From contig JADLHH010000561.1 of the NCBI GenBank assembly GCA_020848855.1, positions 1 to 6,120 on the forward strand: a stretch of 6,120 bases of DNA, given 5' to 3'. This document shows positions 1-6,120 of the stretch, in pieces. This DNA comes from Anaerolineae bacterium (GTDB lineage Bacteria; Chloroflexota; Anaerolineae; Aggregatilineales; Phototrophicaceae). Position numbers and translations under genes: made by a program. The notes under the pieces are model-generated. The model made no database searches. It was not told the DNA's origin and saw only the letters and a program-made list of their open reading frames with translations. Each line of letters begins with the position of its first letter. Within the stretch, counting starts at the first letter, position 1.

Positions 1-546
1 GGCAATAGATGGGGAGTCGTCCAGAAATACGGCAATCGACTCGGCTGTGAGGTCGCGCACCTGCGCGGCTTGAGCTTCGGTCGCACCCCGGCTTTCCGGG
101 CTGCGCCGCGTGCCATGCCCGATGATCGCCACCGCCGCGCTTGCCGGATCAGCGCCGCTCAGCCGCAGCGCATCGGCGACGCGCTGGCGCACCGCCCGCG
201 CCAGATACGGATGCTCGCCCAGCGTCGGCGTGTAGCGCAGCGTTCGCCCACCGCGCCGGGTGACCGCGCCGTCCAGCCCCATTTCCGCCGGGATCACCGT
301 TCGCGTGAAGTAGCCCTGCGCCGTGAACAGCGGCACAATCGTCACGTCGGCGGCTGCCAGCGTGTCGATCACCTGATGGAACGACGGCATCTCCTTCCAG
401 AAGGCAGCCGTCACTTCGTCGGCGACACCAAGCCCGCGCAGCCGGTCGACCTGCTCCCACACCACGCCCGCCGTCTCCGGGCTGATGTGCGAGCCGTGCC
501 CGACCAGCACGACGGCAGTCTCCGGGACTGAGGCATTCCCCGGCAC
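1..546 (-). CDS. cbiX: CbiX-type sirohydrochlorin chelatase, C-terminus beyond window
   Basis: Reading leftwards from GTG at 546-544 gives 182 open codons that run off the window edge; a TGA lies two codons upstream, so the start is tightly bounded. The protein has two CbiX-like halves. The first contains VVLVGHGSH (about residues 12-20, candidate metal ligand His17) and LFTAQGYFTRTVIP (about 73-86). The second begins with VAIIGHGTRRSPES (His144) and reaches FLDDSPS before the edge. CbiX/SirB proteins insert Co2+ or Fe2+ into sirohydrochlorin, giving cobalamin precursor or siroheme. In the first half, the second His often seen in this family (GxHxxxDIP) is replaced by GYFTRTVIP, so only one half may be catalytic. 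With cysH and hemB nearby, a siroheme-directed ferrochelatase (SirB-like) role is plausible, but metal specificity cannot be read from the sequence. Start and stop of the neighbouring sirC-like remnant are 3 nt apart, and no strong Shine-Dalgarno is visible, which suggests former translational coupling. Confidence 0.85.
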   Translation of the reverse strand, partial: MPGNASVPETAVVLVGHGSHISPETAGVVWEQVDRLRGLGVADEVTAAFWKEMPSFHQVIDTLAAADVTIVPLFTAQGYFTRTVIPAEMGLDGAVTRRGGRTLRYTPTLGEHPYLARAVRQRVADALRLSGADPASAAVAIIGHGTRRSPESRGATEAQAAQVRDLTAESIAVFLDDSPSIA

Positions 547-848: not shown

Positions 849-876
849 TTGACGGATTGCAGAAGCAGGTTACACT
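849..876 (+). promoter_or_regulatory. Sigma70-like promoter of the cysH-hemB transcript
   Basis: TTGACG (849-854, five of six matches to TTGACA) is followed by a 16-bp spacer and TACACT (871-876, four of six matches to TATAAT). Transcription would begin about seven bases later, near 883, immediately before the ATG at 884. The first leader ORF would then be leaderless or nearly so. No competing promoter is evident between here and cysH. Confidence 0.6.
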
Positions 877-883
877 GTATCCT

Positions 884-940
884 ATGGCTACGATTTTGAT
901 TCCGGGGTTCGTCTGTTGTTGTATGCTCAACCAACCGTGA
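884..940 (+). CDS. Leader peptide 1 with Cys-Cys-Cys (putative attenuation peptide)
   Basis: This 18-codon ORF from ATG 884 to TGA 938-940 encodes MATILIPGFVCCCMLNQP. Three consecutive TGT Cys codons lie at 914-922. The ATG falls about 8 nt after the -10 box and has no Shine-Dalgarno in front of it, so translation from a leaderless 5' end is the natural reading. An intrinsic terminator follows at 995-1023, and the transcript continues towards cysH, a cysteine-biosynthesis gene. This layout is that of an amino-acid attenuation leader: ribosomes would pause at the Cys codons when charged tRNA-Cys is scarce. Downstream of the Cys codons, AACC copies (929-932 and 933-936) can pair with GGTT copies (945-948 and 955-958), giving switchable structures. 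The peptide itself probably has no function beyond being translated. Expression is not shown by sequence alone. Confidence 0.72.
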   Translation: MATILIPGFVCCCMLNQP

Positions 941-1000
941 GGATGGTTGTCGCCGGTTCGTGCCTGCCCGAATTCTGAAGCCAGATGTGCAGCTAAAACC
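928..1000 (+). promoter_or_regulatory. Alternative-pairing region of attenuator 1
   Basis: A 1:2-type hairpin can form as CAACCA (928-933) with TGGTTG (944-949), or as AACCG (933-937) with CGGTT (954-958). A competing 2:3-type pairing is GGTT (955-958) with AACC (997-1000), continued inwards by U961-A995, G962-U994 and CTGC (964-967) with GCAG (989-992). The second pairing uses the 5' arm of terminator 1 and would prevent it from forming. A ribosome paused at 914-922 would cover the upstream AACC copies and favour the competing pairing. The antiterminator is interrupted by internal mismatches, so it is less convincing than the one in attenuator 2. Confidence 0.45.
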
Positions 1001-1023
1001 CCGGTCACAGCCGGGGTTTTTTT
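995..1023 (+). terminator. Intrinsic terminator 1 (attenuator 1)
   Basis: AAAACCCCGG (995-1004) and CCGGGGTTTT (1011-1020) form a perfect 10-bp stem around the 6-nt loop TCACAG, followed by T through 1023. It lies between leader ORF 1 and leader ORF 2 with no full-size plus-strand gene ending before it. It therefore acts as a leader terminator rather than an end-of-operon terminator. Confidence 0.9.
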
Positions 1024-1039
1024 GTGGGTGAATGCCGAA

Positions 1040-1096
1040 ATGACGATTCGAGTTCTGTGTACGATGTGTTGTCTGGACAAACCTCACGGCGCGTAG
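1040..1096 (+). CDS. Leader peptide 2 with three Cys codons (putative attenuation peptide)
   Basis: This second 18-codon ORF, ATG 1040 to TAG 1094-1096, encodes MTIRVLCTMCCLDKPHGA. TGT codons lie at 1058-1060, 1067-1069 and 1070-1072. A Shine-Dalgarno-like GGGTGA (1026-1031) sits 8 nt before the ATG, unlike leader 1. It begins 17 nt after the end of terminator 1, and terminator 2 follows 26 nt after its stop. Having the same length, the same number of Cys codons and the same downstream logic as leader 1 is hard to attribute to chance. A ribosome stalled at 1067-1072 would cover AACC at 1080-1083. One that reaches the TAG would cover GGTT at 1098-1106 and allow terminator 2 to form. There is no room for a good separate promoter, so it probably acts only on transcripts that passed terminator 1. 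Confidence 0.72.
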   Translation: MTIRVLCTMCCLDKPHGA

Positions 1097-1125
1097 TGGT
1101 TCGGTTGATCATGTCTGTATTAACC
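1080..1125 (+). promoter_or_regulatory. Antiterminator switch of attenuator 2
   Basis: GGTTGAT (1103-1109) can pair with ATTAACC (1119-1125) as a 7-bp hairpin with one G-U wobble and a 9-nt loop. This captures the AACC that starts the 5' arm of terminator 2 (1122-1129), so the two structures exclude each other. The same GGTT (1103-1106), or the copy at 1098-1101, can instead pair with AACC (1080-1083) at the end of leader ORF 2. These are the 1:2, 2:3 and 3:4 relations of a classical attenuator, with the polarity expected for stalling at Cys codons. Confidence 0.6.
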
Positions 1126-1155
1126 CCGGACTGCGAGCGCGCCGGGGTTTTCTTT
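1122..1155 (+). terminator. Intrinsic terminator 2 (attenuator 2), just upstream of cysH
   Basis: AACCCCGG (1122-1129) and CCGGGGTT (1142-1149) make an 8-bp GC-rich stem with a 12-nt loop, followed by TTTTCTTTTTG. It ends only about 15 nt before the cysH start. A full terminator placed directly upstream of a gene's ribosome-binding site, with no plus-strand gene before it, indicates attenuation. Confidence 0.82.
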
Positions 1156-1170
1156 TTGTTTGGAGCGAAG

Positions 1171-1848
1171 ATGCCAGATTACAACCTGCTGAATGCGTTG
1201 CTGGTCTACCCGGAAGATATCCTGCACTGGGCGGTCGAAGCCTACGGCGACCGGCTCGCAGTCGTCACCAGTTTTCAGGGGACGGGAATCGTCACGCTGC
1301 ACATGCTGCACCAGATGGGAGTCACGGTCGACGCGCTGACGCTCGACACCGGGCTGCTGTTCCCCGAAACCTACGACCTGATGGATCGCTTGCAGGATCG
1401 CATTCGGTTCAATCTGGTGAAGGTCAAGCCGGGACTGACGGTCGAGCAGCAGGCGGCACGCTATGGCGATGCGCTGTGGACGCGCGACCCCGACCTGTGC
1501 TGCTCGATGCGCAAGGTTGTGCCGCTTGACCAGGCGCTGGTGGGCTACGACGCCTGGATCGCCGGGCTGCGCCGCGACCAGTCGAAGTCTCGCCGCAGCG
1601 CGCAGGCAATTGCCTGGGATCTGCGCAACGAGAAGGTGAAGATCAACCCGCTGGTGGACTGGACAGAAGACATGGTCTGGACGTACATCCAAGCCTACGA
1701 CCTGCCGTACAACGCGCTGCACGACCGTGGCTATCCGAGCATTGGCTGTTTCCCGTGCACGCAGGCAGCGGCGACATCCGGCGACCCGCGCGCCGGGCGG
1801 TGGGCGAATCACCCTAAGACCGAATGCGGCATCCATGTGCAGGGATAG
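1171..1848 (+). CDS. cysH: Assimilatory adenylyl-sulfate (APS) reductase, phosphoadenylyl-sulfate reductase family
   Basis: This 225-residue cytosolic protein reduces activated sulfate (APS) to sulfite with thioredoxin or a similar donor, in cysteine biosynthesis. Visible motifs are the adenylyl-sulfate-binding SFQGTGIV (about 34-41), LDTGLLFPETYDL (58-70), CC at 110-111 in DLCCSMRK, GLRRDQSKSR (132-141), NPLVDWTEDMVW (159-170), CFPC (193-196) and the catalytic ECGIH near the C-terminus (218-222, Cys219). The CC...CxxC set is the [4Fe-4S] ligand signature of the APS-using branch, so APS rather than PAPS is the likely substrate. The start ATG at 1171 is preceded by GGAG (1162-1165) with 5-nt spacing. 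The frame stays open further upstream to a GTG at 1024, but that would translate through terminator 2, so I reject the longer form. The stop TAG directly abuts hemB. Two Cys-codon attenuators lie upstream. Confidence 0.93.
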   Translation: MPDYNLLNALLVYPEDILHWAVEAYGDRLAVVTSFQGTGIVTLHMLHQMGVTVDALTLDTGLLFPETYDLMDRLQDRIRFNLVKVKPGLTVEQQAARYGDALWTRDPDLCCSMRKVVPLDQALVGYDAWIAGLRRDQSKSRRSAQAIAWDLRNEKVKINPLVDWTEDMVWTYIQAYDLPYNALHDRGYPSIGCFPCTQAAATSGDPRAGRWANHPKTECGIHVQG

Positions 1849-2883
1849 ATGATGAGTCTACAGATCAAGCAGCAAGCCGCCATGACGGCGCGACCACGCC
1901 GCCTGCGCCTGACCAGCAACATGCGGCGGCTGGTGCGCGAAACCAGCCTCAGCCCGGCGGATTTCATCCAGCCGCTGTTCGTGCGCTACGGGCGTGACGA
2001 AAAACGACCGATCGGGGCGATGCCGGGGCAGTTCCAGTGGTCGGCGGATCGCGTTGGGGCGGAAGCGCGCGAGATCGCCGCGCGCGGGATTCCGGCGGTG
2101 ATCCTGTTCGGCATCCCCGAAACCAAAGATGCCTACGGCAGCGAAAACTACGACCCGAACGGCATCATCCCGCAGGCGATTCGCGCCATCAAGGACGCCA
2201 CGCCGGAACTGGTCGTGATTTCCGACATGTGCTTCTGCGAGTACACCGATCACGGGCACTGCGGGGTCGTCAACCACGCCGAAGATGCCGATTACAACCC
2301 GCACCTGCCGGAAGGCTACCTGCTCAACGATGCCACGCTCAACCTGCTCGGCGAAGCGTCGGTCGTTCACGCTGAAGCCGGCGCGGATATGATCGCGCCG
2401 TCGGGCATGATCGACGGGATGGTCGGTGCGATTCGCTCGGCGCTCGACGACACCGGCTTCGGGCACGTCAGCATCATCAGCTACGCGGCGAAGTACGCCA
2501 GCGGGTTCTACGGTCCGTTCCGCGAGGCGGCACACAGCGCGCCGACGTTCGGCGACCGCAGCCAGTACCAGATGGACCCGGCAAACCGGCGCGAGGCGCT
2601 GCACGAAGTCGCGCTCGACGCTGCCGAGGGCGTGGACGCGATTATGATCAAGCCGGCGCTGCCGTACCTCGACGTGCTGAGCGCCGTTCGCCAGCAGATC
2701 GATCTGCCAATCGCGGCGTATCAGGTGAGCGGCGAATATGCCATGCTGCAGGCGGCTGCCGCCAATGGCTGGCTCGACCTGCGGCGCTGCGCGCTCGAAA
2801 GCCTGGTCGGCATCAAACGCGCCGGGGCGGACATGATCGTCAGCTACTTCGCCAAAGAGGCGGCGGGCTGGCTGGCGGAGTGA
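1849..2883 (+). CDS. hemB: Porphobilinogen synthase (delta-aminolevulinic acid dehydratase)
   Basis: This 344-residue cytosolic enzyme condenses two 5-aminolevulinate molecules to porphobilinogen, the common early step to siroheme, heme and B12. Motifs in order are RRLRLTSNMRRLVRE near the N-terminus, FGIPETKDAYGSENYDPNG, the metal site DMCFCEYTDHGHCG with three Cys (C128, C130, C138), APSGMIDGMVGAIR, SYAAKYASGFYGPFREA (Lys215), IMIKPALPYLD (Schiff-base Lys268) and AYQVSGEYAM. The three-Cys form marks the zinc-dependent class. ATG 1849 follows the cysH TAG with no gap; ATG 1852 is equally possible and better spaced (7 nt) from AGGG (1841-1844). An internal ATG at 1882 would give about 333 residues, closer to the usual family length. 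Translational coupling with cysH is likely, which places HemB under the cysH leader. Its last 40 bp overlap the converging URO-D-like gene. Confidence 0.96.
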   Translation: MMSLQIKQQAAMTARPRRLRLTSNMRRLVRETSLSPADFIQPLFVRYGRDEKRPIGAMPGQFQWSADRVGAEAREIAARGIPAVILFGIPETKDAYGSENYDPNGIIPQAIRAIKDATPELVVISDMCFCEYTDHGHCGVVNHAEDADYNPHLPEGYLLNDATLNLLGEASVVHAEAGADMIAPSGMIDGMVGAIRSALDDTGFGHVSIISYAAKYASGFYGPFREAAHSAPTFGDRSQYQMDPANRREALHEVALDAAEGVDAIMIKPALPYLDVLSAVRQQIDLPIAAYQVSGEYAMLQAAAANGWLDLRRCALESLVGIKRAGADMIVSYFAKEAAGWLAE

Positions 2884-3998
2884 GCCTGGTCGTAGCGACA
2901 TTCGTCCTGCGTGACCTGCATCAGCCAGCGCATACGACCGACTCCCGTCCCTGCTGCTAACGACCCGGCGGTGGCGATCACCAGCCTGCCAGTGCTGCCC
3001 GCCGCCCGGAAGTTGCTCATGACCCGTTCGCGGATCACGCCTGCGGACTCGTTGCGGAGCAGGAACGGCGGAATGTGTCCCTTGATCACGGCGTCGGGCA
3101 TTTTCTCGCGGATCAGGGCAATATCAACCTCCGGTCCGTAGTTGACTTCGTTGATCCCCAGTTCGCGCTGCTGGTCGAGGTGGTGTCCCATCGCGCTGTC
3201 CGAATGCTGATAGCGCCGGGCTTCGCCGGGGGCGAGGCAGTCCAGTACGTGGCGCAGCACCGGCACGCAGTATTCGTTGTACAGCGCGCGGTTGAACAGG
3301 GCGCTGTTGTCGTCGGTGATCCACCAGCCGGGCTGCCTGTTGCCGCTGAAGCGGCGCAGCGTCTGGTTGAGTTCGACCATCTTCTGCGCGAGGATGTCCC
3401 GAAAACGACGCATCAGGTCGGGGTAGTCATAAAACCAGTAGAAAGCGGTCGTCGGCTCCAGCACCGCCGTGATGATAGTGGCAGGTCCCCGGCTGCCTTC
3501 GCCGAGCAGCGGCATAGCGTCACCTCTCGATTTGTGGGTTTCCCACTCCTGCAGAAAGGCGTCGGGAAACGCCCATTTGTCCATATCGGCGGCTTCCGCT
3601 TTGTCGAGAATGTGGGCGAATGCGTCGGGATCATCGGTTGCGGGGGTCAGCCAGGGGGTCGCGCCTTCGGTGTATGAGAAGAAACAGGCGAACAGGTTCT
3701 CGATTCGACGCGGCTGGTACTGCCAACTGTCTTCGTCAAAGAACGTCTTGCCGACGTACTGCCGCGTGACCGCGTTCGCGGTTTGGTGCAGATCATCGCG
3801 GTATGCCTTGTCCAGATAGTACTGGACGGTCGATTCGACGTTCAGGAACTCGAACAACCAGTGATCGTCCGGCGAAAATTCCAGCGCGCAGCGCGGCTTA
3901 TCGGGGGTTGGCTGCCAGCAGCGGTCGTTCTCTGCCCAGAATTGGTCGGTGTCGAGATCCGATGTCAGGTCAATAAATTCTTGTTCGATAATCGCCAT
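2844..3998 (-). CDS. Uroporphyrinogen decarboxylase (URO-D) superfamily protein, substrate unknown
   Basis: The 384-residue product MAIIEQEFIDLTSDLD... has the general look of URO-D-fold proteins: ITDDNSALFN and HSDSAMGHHL (His265-Asp267) mid-protein, ELGINEVNYGPEVDIALIREKMP, then VIKGHIPPFLLR and the C-terminal ATAGSLAAGTGVGRMRW (342-358). The family includes HemE, which decarboxylates uroporphyrinogen III to coproporphyrinogen III, and corrinoid methyltransferases of the MtaA/CmuA type. I do not see the HemE N-terminal RQAGR motif, nor the HxC zinc motif of the methyltransferases, so neither function should be assigned. Proximity to hemB and cbiX hints at tetrapyrrole chemistry but is weak evidence. 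ATG at 3998-3996 is preceded by GAGGA (4013-4009) with 10-nt spacing. The last 12 residues (HSASQPAASLAK) lie within the overlap with hemB. A TATAAT box occurs about 65 bp upstream. Confidence 0.82.
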   Translation of the reverse strand: MAIIEQEFIDLTSDLDTDQFWAENDRCWQPTPDKPRCALEFSPDDHWLFEFLNVESTVQYYLDKAYRDDLHQTANAVTRQYVGKTFFDEDSWQYQPRRIENLFACFFSYTEGATPWLTPATDDPDAFAHILDKAEAADMDKWAFPDAFLQEWETHKSRGDAMPLLGEGSRGPATIITAVLEPTTAFYWFYDYPDLMRRFRDILAQKMVELNQTLRRFSGNRQPGWWITDDNSALFNRALYNEYCVPVLRHVLDCLAPGEARRYQHSDSAMGHHLDQQRELGINEVNYGPEVDIALIREKMPDAVIKGHIPPFLLRNESAGVIRERVMSNFRAAGSTGRLVIATAGSLAAGTGVGRMRWLMQVTQDECRYDQAHSASQPAASLAK

Positions 3999-4286: not shown

Positions 4287-6120
4287 TTGTTACGCAGAGA
4301 TAGGTTTAGCCTTTTGCTTGCCGTGCTCGCTATCTTTCTGGGCAGTGTGAGCGTGATGGCGCAGGATGCGCCTGCACCGGTCGCTCCCACCAGCACCGAT
4401 TTGCTCAAGGTGAATATCCTGTTTGTCGGAGCGCACCCGGACGACGACTCGGCTGCCGTTGGCACGCTGGCGCGCTATGGACTCGATCACGGTGCGCAGA
4501 CCGGTGTGATCACGGCGACGCGCGGCGAAGGCGGCGGCAACTCGATTGGGCGTGAGCTGGGACCGTCGCTCGGCATTCTGCGTGAAGCCGAGGAGCGCGC
4601 GGCGCTGTCCATGCTCGGCGTGTCGTCGGTCAACTATCTGAACGAGCAGGATTGGGCATTCACCACCAGCGCGACCGCAGCCGAGCAGTTCTGGGGGCAT
4701 GATGAGCCGCTGGGCAACCTCGTGCGCCTGTTCCGCCTGCTCAAGCCGGATGTGGTGATCACGATGAACCCGTCACCCGGCAGCGGGCACGGGCATCACC
4801 AGTATGTCGCGCGGCTGGCGACCGAAGCGTTCTTCCTCGCTGGCGACCCGACCGCCTTCCCGGAACAGCTCAGCGACGAATTTCTCGATCCCTGGCAGCC
4901 GCTCAAGCTGTATTACGCGCTCAACTACGGCGGCGAAGGGCTGACGGCGAGCCTGCAAGTGCCGGTGGACGAAATCTCGCCCAGTCAGTTCACCAGCTAT
5001 GCTGACCTGAAAGCCAACGCGCTGCGGCTGTACCGCAGCCAGGGCTTCGACAGCTTCTTCACACTCCCCGCGCAGGGGTTCGCCAGCTTCCCCGAAACGT
5101 TCATGCTGGCGGCGAGCGTTCTGCCGGTCACCGACGCGGAAACCGACATCCTCGCCGGAGTCAACACCGGGGTAGCGCGGGCGCCGGCTGGCGTCCAACT
5201 GCTGGTCACGCCGCAGAATTTCTACATGGCGCAGGGCAGCGAACAGCAGATCGACGTGACGTTCCGCAATATGAGCGCCGTTGACCTGACCGGTGTCTCG
5301 CTGAGCCTGAGCGCGCCCGATGGCTGGACGGTCAGCGAGGCGCAGGACGTGGGCGATCTGGCGGCAGGCGGTGAAGCCTCCGCGACGTTCACGGTCAGCG
5401 TTCCGCCGGATGCCGATGTCAGCGCGTTCTCGCGGCTGAGCGGGCGTTTCGACGCGACCGATGCTTCCGGCGACGCGGTTTACGCCGGCAAACCGGCACT
5501 GGTGCAGGTGACTTCTCCCGTTTCGGTCGAGCTTCAGCCGATTCAGGCGGTGCAGATTTATCGTGACTGGGCGAGCAGCATCGGCATGGAAAGCATCGTC
5601 GGGCTGGCATCCACCCAGATCGCGCTGGCGGCGGGCGGCTCTGGCACGATTCCGGTGATCCTCACCAACCGCTCCGATTCCGCTCAGGACGTGACCGTTT
5701 CGGTCAGCGTGAGCGGCGATGCCGTTTCGCTGGATGTGAGCGAACAGACGGTGACCGTTGCCGCCGGCGAATCGCAGACGGTCACCTTTGGGGTCACGGT
5801 TGCCGACGGCGCGGCGCAGAACACGTTCGACGTGACCGCGCAGGCGACCTATGGCGATTATGATCTGAGCAGCGCCGGTACGGTGCAGATCGTGCCGTCG
5901 CTGAGCGTGCCGCGTGTAGCTGCCGCGCCGGAAATTGATGGTGATCTGAGCGAATATGCCGACCTGCCGACCTACGAAATCCCGTATACGTACCTGTGGG
6001 AAGGCGCGACCGACGATGAAGCCGACCTGACCGGTCAGTTCCAGGTCGCCTACGACGACGCATATCTGTACGTCGCTGTTCAGGTCACCGATCAGACGGT
6101 CGTCTCGAACATCGCGCCGA
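4287..6120 (+). CDS. Secreted LmbE/PIG-L family deacetylase with NEW3-like and CBM9-like modules (3' end beyond window)
   Basis: The frame runs 611 codons from TTG 4287 to the window edge. The TTG start is chosen because AAGGGG (4275-4280) lies 6 nt before it and a signal peptide follows at once: MLRRDRF, a hydrophobic stretch about residues 8-23, and a probable cut after VMA (25). The N-terminal domain (about 42-290) is PIG-L/LmbE-like: LFVGAHPDDD (His50, Asp53 as zinc-ligand candidates), TRGEGGGNSIGRELG and GSGHGHHQY (His168, His170, His171). The family removes N-acetyl groups from GlcNAc-type or related sugars. Two beta-rich NEW3-like segments follow (about 303-385 and 440-535, with PQNFYMAQGSEQQIDVTFRN and a similar second copy). 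A CBM9/DOMON-like segment starts near 541 (APEIDGDLSEY...AYDDAYLYVAVQV). A secreted enzyme acting on polysaccharide or cell-surface glycans is likely, with the substrate unknown. The usual AHPDDE is AHPDDD here. The gene appears unrelated to the sulfur/tetrapyrrole genes. Confidence 0.85.
   Translation, partial: MLRRDRFSLLLAVLAIFLGSVSVMAQDAPAPVAPTSTDLLKVNILFVGAHPDDDSAAVGTLARYGLDHGAQTGVITATRGEGGGNSIGRELGPSLGILREAEERAALSMLGVSSVNYLNEQDWAFTTSATAAEQFWGHDEPLGNLVRLFRLLKPDVVITMNPSPGSGHGHHQYVARLATEAFFLAGDPTAFPEQLSDEFLDPWQPLKLYYALNYGGEGLTASLQVPVDEISPSQFTSYADLKANALRLYRSQGFDSFFTLPAQGFASFPETFMLAASVLPVTDAETDILAGVNTGVARAPAGVQLLVTPQNFYMAQGSEQQIDVTFRNMSAVDLTGVSLSLSAPDGWTVSEAQDVGDLAAGGEASATFTVSVPPDADVSAFSRLSGRFDATDASGDAVYAGKPALVQVTSPVSVELQPIQAVQIYRDWASSIGMESIVGLASTQIALAAGGSGTIPVILTNRSDSAQDVTVSVSVSGDAVSLDVSEQTVTVAAGESQTVTFGVTVADGAAQNTFDVTAQATYGDYDLSSAGTVQIVPSLSVPRVAAAPEIDGDLSEYADLPTYEIPYTYLWEGATDDEADLTGQFQVAYDDAYLYVAVQVTDQTVVSNIAP

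Follow-up and report, generated by a model that had tools for sequence, protein, structure and literature searches.

Attenuators of the trp, his and leu type are the textbook kind of ribosome-mediated attenuator. Polycysteine leaderless ORFs were reportedly treated by Canestrari in 2020, and tandem riboswitches are said to be the subject of Welz and Breaker, 2007. One further ribosome-mediated attenuator is that of ilvB1 in M. tuberculosis (PMC13236596). In the Rhodobacterales, uORFC-8-2 lies before cysS and combines two adjacent Cys codons with a terminator, an arrangement for which transcription attenuation has been proposed (PMC8632094). Cys leader peptides occur before cys operons in Mycobacterium and P. 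acnes and before cbs of B. longum (PMC1262725), and the polycysteine ORFs of M. smegmatis are cited as a case of translation attenuation (PMC13236596). Tandem attenuators are known from the mgtCBR leader of Salmonella, which respond to two signals, ATP and proline, and are called a 'singular example' by their authors (PMC3641672). Tandem riboswitches and T-boxes for one ligand comprise two sensors and two expression platforms, and a digital-like response is expected of them (PMC12452182).

The present analysis concerns a 6,120-nt stretch of Anaerolineae DNA (hereafter the window). To judge from its sequence, the region upstream of cysH-hemB very probably carries two ribosome-mediated transcription attenuators in series, both responding to the same signal, charged tRNA-Cys. 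An earlier note on this DNA had also read serial attenuators upstream of cysH-hemB, and that reading as a whole is supported by conservation and covariation. The basis consists of the anatomy of the leader, the conservation of both modules, the placement of the promoter, the covariation and the sulfur genes downstream. Clustered Cys codons, a predicted terminator between ORF and gene on what appears to be one transcript, and a gene of the same pathway, as expected of such attenuators, are all found.

Anatomy and gene setting of the window leader

The earlier note had claimed two complete modules behind a sigma70-like promoter, each consisting of an 18-codon ORF that has three Cys codons and of a terminator after it. 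Script and direct reading locate both modules, and the promoter lies at 849-876. The features are as follows.

1 to 546, minus strand: CbiX-like gene (Pfam), divergent from the cysH operon
849 to 876, plus strand: sigma70-like promoter, TTGACG (849-854), 16 nt, TACACT (871-876); script and direct reading
884 to 940, plus strand: leader ORF 1, MATILIPGFVCCCMLNQP then stop, 18 codons
902 to 909, plus strand: CCGGGGTT within ORF 1, fully complementary to the 5' arm of terminator 1, AACCCCGG
914 to 922, plus strand: the three Cys codons of ORF 1, TGT TGT TGT
928 to 949, plus strand: candidate 1:2 hairpin, CAACC...GGTTG, -9.4 kcal/mol; sequence and folding energy
945 to 956, plus strand: module 1 antiterminator strand (AT5), GGTTGTCGCCGG, just 3' of the ORF 1 stop
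995 to 1023, plus strand: intrinsic terminator 1; own scan and reading
1040 to 1096, plus strand: leader ORF 2, MTIRVLCTMCCLDKPHGA then stop, 18 codons
1058 to 1072, plus strand: Cys codons of ORF 2, TGT ACG ATG TGT TGT, three Cys
1089 to 1109, plus strand: module 2 antiterminator strand (AT5), spanning the ORF 2 stop
1122 to 1157, plus strand: intrinsic terminator 2, AACCCCGG...CCGGGGTTTTCTTTTT; own scan and reading
1171 to 1848, plus strand: cysH (PAPS/APS reductase), ATG at 1171; PF01507, E 3.9e-48
1849 to 2883, plus strand: hemB (delta-aminolevulinate dehydratase), the next gene on the strand; PF00490, E 5e-141
2844 to 3998, minus strand: URO-D family gene, behind hemB; family search

No other promoter-like site occurs between 600 and 1400 of the window (mean 0.3 in shuffles). 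ORF 1 is possibly translated without a leader, because only 7 nt separate the -10 element from its ATG. That no plus-strand protein gene precedes the terminators, as had been asserted, was borne out, the upstream CbiX gene (1-546) being on the minus strand. Both hairpins are GC-rich and each has a U tract; they were called by a separate hairpin scan and reading of the sequence, a consensus terminator scan of 600-1400 having returned 0 sites. Taken as a whole, the fold of 876-1170 does not stand out (z -1.30), 25 of 200 shuffles being equally good.

Tetrapyrrole genes are clustered around the window cysH (CbiX-like, hemB and URO-D family), and hemB itself fits the tetrapyrrole link of cysH operons. 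Farther along the plus strand, a long open frame (about 4290-6120) has a secretion-signal-like start and an AHPDDDSAAVG motif; it is presumably PIG-L/LmbE deacetylase-like.

In the window, the SD-like GGAG that precedes cysH (at 1162) comes 4 nt after the end of the terminator 2 U tract, and actinobacteria are on record with Cys leader ORFs that have no terminators (PMC1262725). Both observations would suit hairpins acting on translation, module 2 hiding the cysH ribosome site rather than ending transcription. This is nevertheless highly unlikely: U tracts follow both hairpins, cysH begins about 150 nt after terminator 1, and across 46 tandem loci the distance from the end of terminator 2 to the first likely cysH start has a median of 41 nt (10th-90th percentile 22-46), so that the ribosome site would seldom be overlapped.

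Conservation of the modules and the genes behind them

The CysH relatives of the window include 'Phototrophicaceae bacterium' (76%) and 'Aggregatilineales bacterium' (63%), the closest being at 86%. Loci were gathered by a class-wide CysH search (80 of 298 genomes, E up to 1e-20) and an order-wide one (85 of 154 genomes, E up to 1e-50), and the cysH places from both were all included apart from a single one in G228, truncated by the end of its contig. Of 176 loci with a CysH match, 96 fell below 50% identity and L016 was a duplicate; removing these gives 79, the window included. At these 79 loci (CysH identity at least 50%) an automatic detector, its thresholds loosened on the same loci, reported two modules at 46, one at 7 and none at 26. 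The same detector found two modules at 0/79 antisense loci, 0/78 downstream regions and 0/1580 dinucleotide shuffles; for one module the corresponding values were 3/79, 0/78 and 20/1580. One module each was missed by the filters, and later seen, in the window and L025 (strict filter for both) and in L124, L131, L146 and L162; the second module of L124, where the detector gave one, was recognised by eye and by covariance model R1. A third 'module' of L121 was judged spurious, as was that of L188, which lies inside a gene.

The earlier note had made its reading depend on conservation in relatives that keep cysH. Of the 73 members of the order whose CysH reaches 50% identity, 50 have tandem modules leading the cysH operon by hand tally: 46 have them immediately upstream of cysH itself, and 4 upstream of a reductase-cysH pair. 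A single module is found in 12 genomes and none in 11, 5 of which were searched in the first flank only. The paired layout, kept in dozens of relatives, suggests that doubled switches run part of the sulfur metabolism of these organisms. In L001 (Chloroflexi Centralia_MAG_208, CysH 63%), the contig closest to the window in the genome collection, there are two modules; their Cys runs are NLCCACCMCC and GACCCMCC, and one terminator stem-loop is found in both.

In 10 genomes cysH is not the first gene and has no modules of its own, the modules standing before the first gene of the set. This gene belongs to the NIR_SIR (nitrite/sulfite reductase) family behind two modules in L183, L184, L185 and L186 and behind one in L180 and L182, where it heads the cysH set; in L176-L179 one module precedes a solute-binding/ABC transporter gene set. 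These assignments are from Pfam for L183, L185, L186, L180, L182 and L176, and from ORF size and position for L184 and L177-L179. The NIR_SIR gene is probably a sulfite reductase, since it adjoins cysH.

A simple search pattern (TGTTGT, then 55-85 nt, a CCCC/GGGG hairpin and a T run) is present in 76 of 154 genomes of the order (reversed pattern 5/154) and in 13 of 400 across the phylum, G001 included (reversed 6/400); a looser pattern gave 10 matches in three genomes against 8 for its reversed control. Outside the order, single Cys modules with other terminators occur at L011/L018, L040, L041, L043, L044 and L061, all among the 96 loci below 50% identity; L167 is doubtful. L040, L041 and L061 share a single cysH leader of another type, with peptides CVCMC, CACMC and CTCKC and a terminator GCCCGTGAAC...GTTCGCGGGC.

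The upstream promoter is also a regular feature. A promoter-like site (at least 9/12) precedes module 1 in 44 of the 46 tandem loci (plain shuffles 9.2%), and 3 of these 46 have one in the space separating the two modules (shuffles 2.8%). Weak Rfam look-alikes of sRNAs, below the gathering score, might suggest two independent short transcripts (small RNAs, or products of a second promoter), with terminator 1 unrelated to cysH. Such an arrangement has very little probability, given the between-module promoter frequency near shuffle level, the location of the upstream CbiX gene on the other strand and the absence of Rfam families reaching the gathering score, in the window as in 10 relatives, apart from one tRNA elsewhere in L256.

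What is conserved is an ORF with in-frame TGT or TGC. Within the Cys runs, in-frame TGN codons are TGT (349), TGC (95) and TGG (0), TGA being absent by the ORF rule. An SD-like site precedes ORF 1 in 12 and ORF 2 in 33 of the 46 loci. The control codons of the leaders prefer TGT, the rarer Cys codon in cysH: counted from run to stop, leaders have 401 TGT vs 130 TGC, and cysH genes 324 TGC vs 92 TGT. This choice of TGT could raise sensitivity. A codon-position test was uninformative, differences being spread across all three positions. Tandem riboswitches and T-boxes are on record (PMC12452182), and a metabolite riboswitch or T-box might take the place of the leader-peptide attenuator; with coding sequence as the conserved feature and no Rfam match at gathering score, this is hardly credible.

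The genes behind the modules accord with the leader-peptide reading. The fit between the Cys codons and the regulated gene, put forward in the earlier note, holds in that downstream genes serve the cysteine/sulfur pathway (Pfam, window and relatives). Behind cysH in tandem loci, Pfam assigns NAD_binding_7 (L128, L160, L102, L112), CbiX (L128, L160) and tetrapyrrole methylase (L141, L160), which are siroheme-type genes; the exceptions are L115, with TauE, and L103, where no family was assigned. Siroheme is the cofactor of sulfite reductase.

Twenty further places, chosen for a Cys-rich look or an R1 match and hence not a rate, yielded a module in 19, paired in five (L256, L257, L265, L271, L273). 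Pfam was applied to 20 proteins from 17 of these loci (L264, L268 and L274 left out). NIR_SIR reductases lie behind tandem modules in L256, L257 and L265 and behind single ones in L260 and L262. A PF13531 solute-binding protein follows the tandem modules of L271 and is also found behind a module in L270, and NAD_binding_7, as in siroheme genes, follows the tandem modules of L273. Rhodanese genes stand behind single Cys modules in L258, L259, L267, L269, L272 and L275, with the sulfur transporter PF04143 next in L258 and L259; sulfur uptake is possibly under the same control at these loci. DUF1684 lies behind the module in L261. DUF4395 follows a Cys module in L263 and L264 has an ORF of equal size, a possible unnamed sulfur gene. 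The response regulator about 400 nt from the module in L266 is probably unrelated to it.

When a covariance model was made from the second modules alone, it recovered 41 of the 46 first modules with E no higher than 1 and 29 with E no higher than 0.05, that of the window at 0.0011. The modules are therefore related, most simply by duplication. In a CysH tree made by a quick method, the tandem state appears in several clades with 15 changes; the backbone is poorly resolved and the placement of the window unsure, so no claim is made on how often pairs arose.

Alternative structures and ribosome position

In the proposed mechanism, the Cys-run ORF of each module would be translated with RNA polymerase just ahead. 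When charged tRNA-Cys is short, the ribosome would stall in the Cys run, AT5 would bind the terminator's 5' arm and loop, and the polymerase would pass. When it is plentiful, the ribosome would reach the stop region and cover part of AT5, allowing the terminator to form. Transcription of cysH would require passage through both modules. Translation, stalling and termination are here deduced from the sequence features.

The AACC/GGTT alternative pairings of the earlier note are present; they make up only part of the alternative structure, the antiterminators being longer. In window module 1, GGTTGTCGCCGG (945-956) forms 11 of 12 pairs, G-U included, with CCGGTCACAGCC (1001-1012), a part of the terminator 5' arm and loop. 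At -16.2 kcal/mol this antiterminator rivals the terminator (-17.1). The candidate hairpin at 928-949 could hide its AT5. In module 2, AT5 (about 1089-1109) pairs with 1119-1140 at -21.0 kcal/mol. Antiterminator and terminator are thus predicted to be mutually exclusive. Across the tandem loci, the best partner of the terminator 5' arm and loop starts 12-26 nt past the Cys run in 42/46 first and 43/46 second modules. AT5 starts at a median of 18 nt past the run in first and second modules alike, and its end falls at a median of -1 and -1.5 nt from the ORF stop in modules 1 and 2, with wide spread.

Covariation was assessed in alignments of 46 first and 46 second modules, with pairs drawn from one row (L128) and the window row out of register at module 1 AT5 in alignment A1; many rows are close kin, and the shuffles keep kinship. 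Compensatory changes, which the earlier note had asked for in both terminators and both antiterminators, were found as two-sided changes in all four structures. For the module 2 antiterminator, 86.6% of cells are paired, 10 of 13 pairs have two-sided changes, and the 37 two-sided cells compare with 6.0 in shuffles; 0/500 shuffles reached the observed value on any of the five measures. The module 1 antiterminator has 73.5% of cells paired and 29 two-sided cells vs 13.9 in shuffles (0/500), its numbers of pairs and of pair types with changes being reached by 67 and 258 of 500 shuffles. Terminators 1 and 2 have 83.7% and 86.3% of cells paired and 22 and 26 two-sided cells vs 8.0 and 10.7 in shuffles (0/500 each); here shuffles reached the pair counts in 107 and 319 cases of 500, and the types in 83 and 498. 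When partners were slid, percent paired, changed cells and covariation score dropped in all four structures, pair or type counts not always being lowered. Individual examples include GTTATCCG/CGGATAA in many second modules vs GTAGTCCG/CGGACTAC in L104 and L106. In L122, A to G in AT5 goes together with T to C in the terminator loop, a change that keeps the antiterminator only.

Folding was modelled with a ribosome masking the A-site codon together with 16 nt on its 5' side and 12 nt on its 3' side, the remaining RNA being free. On nascent RNA, the 5' arm of the terminator was bound upstream with a median of 0.74 for a ribosome at the last Cys codon and 0.49 at the stop in module 1, and 0.79 and 0.68 in module 2. 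Binding was greater in the stalled state (by 0.1) in 35/46 first and 28/46 second modules and changed in the opposite direction (by 0.1) in 3/46 and 7/46, window module 1 included. Masked folding agrees with the expected switch in most modules, not all. An earlier model in which only RNA ahead of the ribosome folds had given 43/46 and 44/46 in favour, none reversed, and equal values (0.55) for both ribosome states in window module 1; it excluded AT5 by construction in many stop states, and the masked model gives the fairer figure. On the complete leader, the masked model favours the terminator in either ribosome state in most modules, with a median probability of 0.97 throughout; the value is lower when stalled in 6 and 10 of 46 and higher in 9 and 4. 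With the terminator favoured at equilibrium in both states, the switch would have to be kinetic.

The two window modules differ in this model. In module 2, the 5' arm was bound at 0.73 stalled and 0.54 at the stop, and terminator probability was 0.00 stalled and 0.94 at the stop; in the earlier model the terminator was also open (0.00) without any ribosome. In module 1 binding was 0.05 stalled and 0.86 at the stop, against the expected switch, probably because CCGGGGTT (902-909) is free with the ribosome at the stop. This segment lies 5' of the Cys run, and it may give module 1 a different or additional behaviour.

The contrary folding of module 1 is among the observations that would suit a single working switch, the other module being a decaying duplicate or a plain expression-lowering terminator. 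Single modules also occur in 12 of the 73 genomes, among them L127 (G382), with one module behind a TTGACA promoter at cysH. L107 (G340) has one Cys ORF and then two back-to-back intrinsic terminators, about 60-95 nt before the extrapolated cysH start; it is perhaps a tandem pair with the second ORF lost. Such a division of roles is unlikely, as Cys runs, terminators and covarying antiterminators are kept in both modules over 46 loci and tandem pairs also precede other genes. Two working attenuators in series remain the preferred reading.

Significance and comparison with known systems

The earlier note expected two terminators in series to give tighter or graded control. The serial layout would be predicted to lower the basal level and steepen the response, because read-through multiplies. 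On balance, the evidence leans towards an order that runs much of its sulfur assimilation, comprising uptake, PAPS reduction, sulfite reduction and siroheme, by Cys-tRNA attenuators doubled at key reductive steps, which would act as cooperative, low-leak switches and form the first same-signal tandem, a conserved pair. A conserved, natural, doubled ribosome-read switch would allow the gain from serial attenuators (in leak, steepness or both) to be tested, a cultured relative with a single module providing a natural comparison. Phototrophicus methaneseepsis ZRK33 assimilates sulfate and has transcriptome reads deposited as PRJNA1012367 (PMC11005417). The modules also provide a sequence-based prediction of sulfur-assimilation control in a poorly studied phylum.

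The matches listed from the open-licence literature contain, as a weak negative, no account of leader-peptide attenuation in Chloroflexi or of a series of two leader-peptide attenuators that respond to the same signal. As in trp/his/leu-type attenuators, a short ORF with regulatory codons is followed by an antiterminator, an intrinsic terminator and a biosynthetic gene; the window differs in that the unit is doubled, carries Cys codons and is found in Chloroflexota. It shares with uORFC-8-2 the succession of a Cys-codon uORF and a terminator. By its description, uORFC-8-2 stands apart as a single module before a cysteinyl-tRNA synthetase gene in alphaproteobacteria, whereas the window concerns cysH and sulfur genes in Chloroflexota. 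Cys-codon runs before sulfur genes, and possibly a leaderless ORF 1, recall the mycobacterial Cys leaders. However, the mycobacterial and actinobacterial leaders are described with a single ORF and no obvious terminators, and in the window a terminator follows both ORFs.

The closest parallels for the doubling itself come from other kinds of leader. Like mgtCBR, the window has two uORF-based attenuators within one leader, but here each module has a Cys run and a terminator of its own, and the pair does not answer two different signals. Tandem riboswitches and T-boxes similarly present two complete sensors for one signal, these being RNA sensors there and translated leaders here. The working principle is that of the classic amino-acid attenuator, and the same-signal tandem doubling would be the new element.
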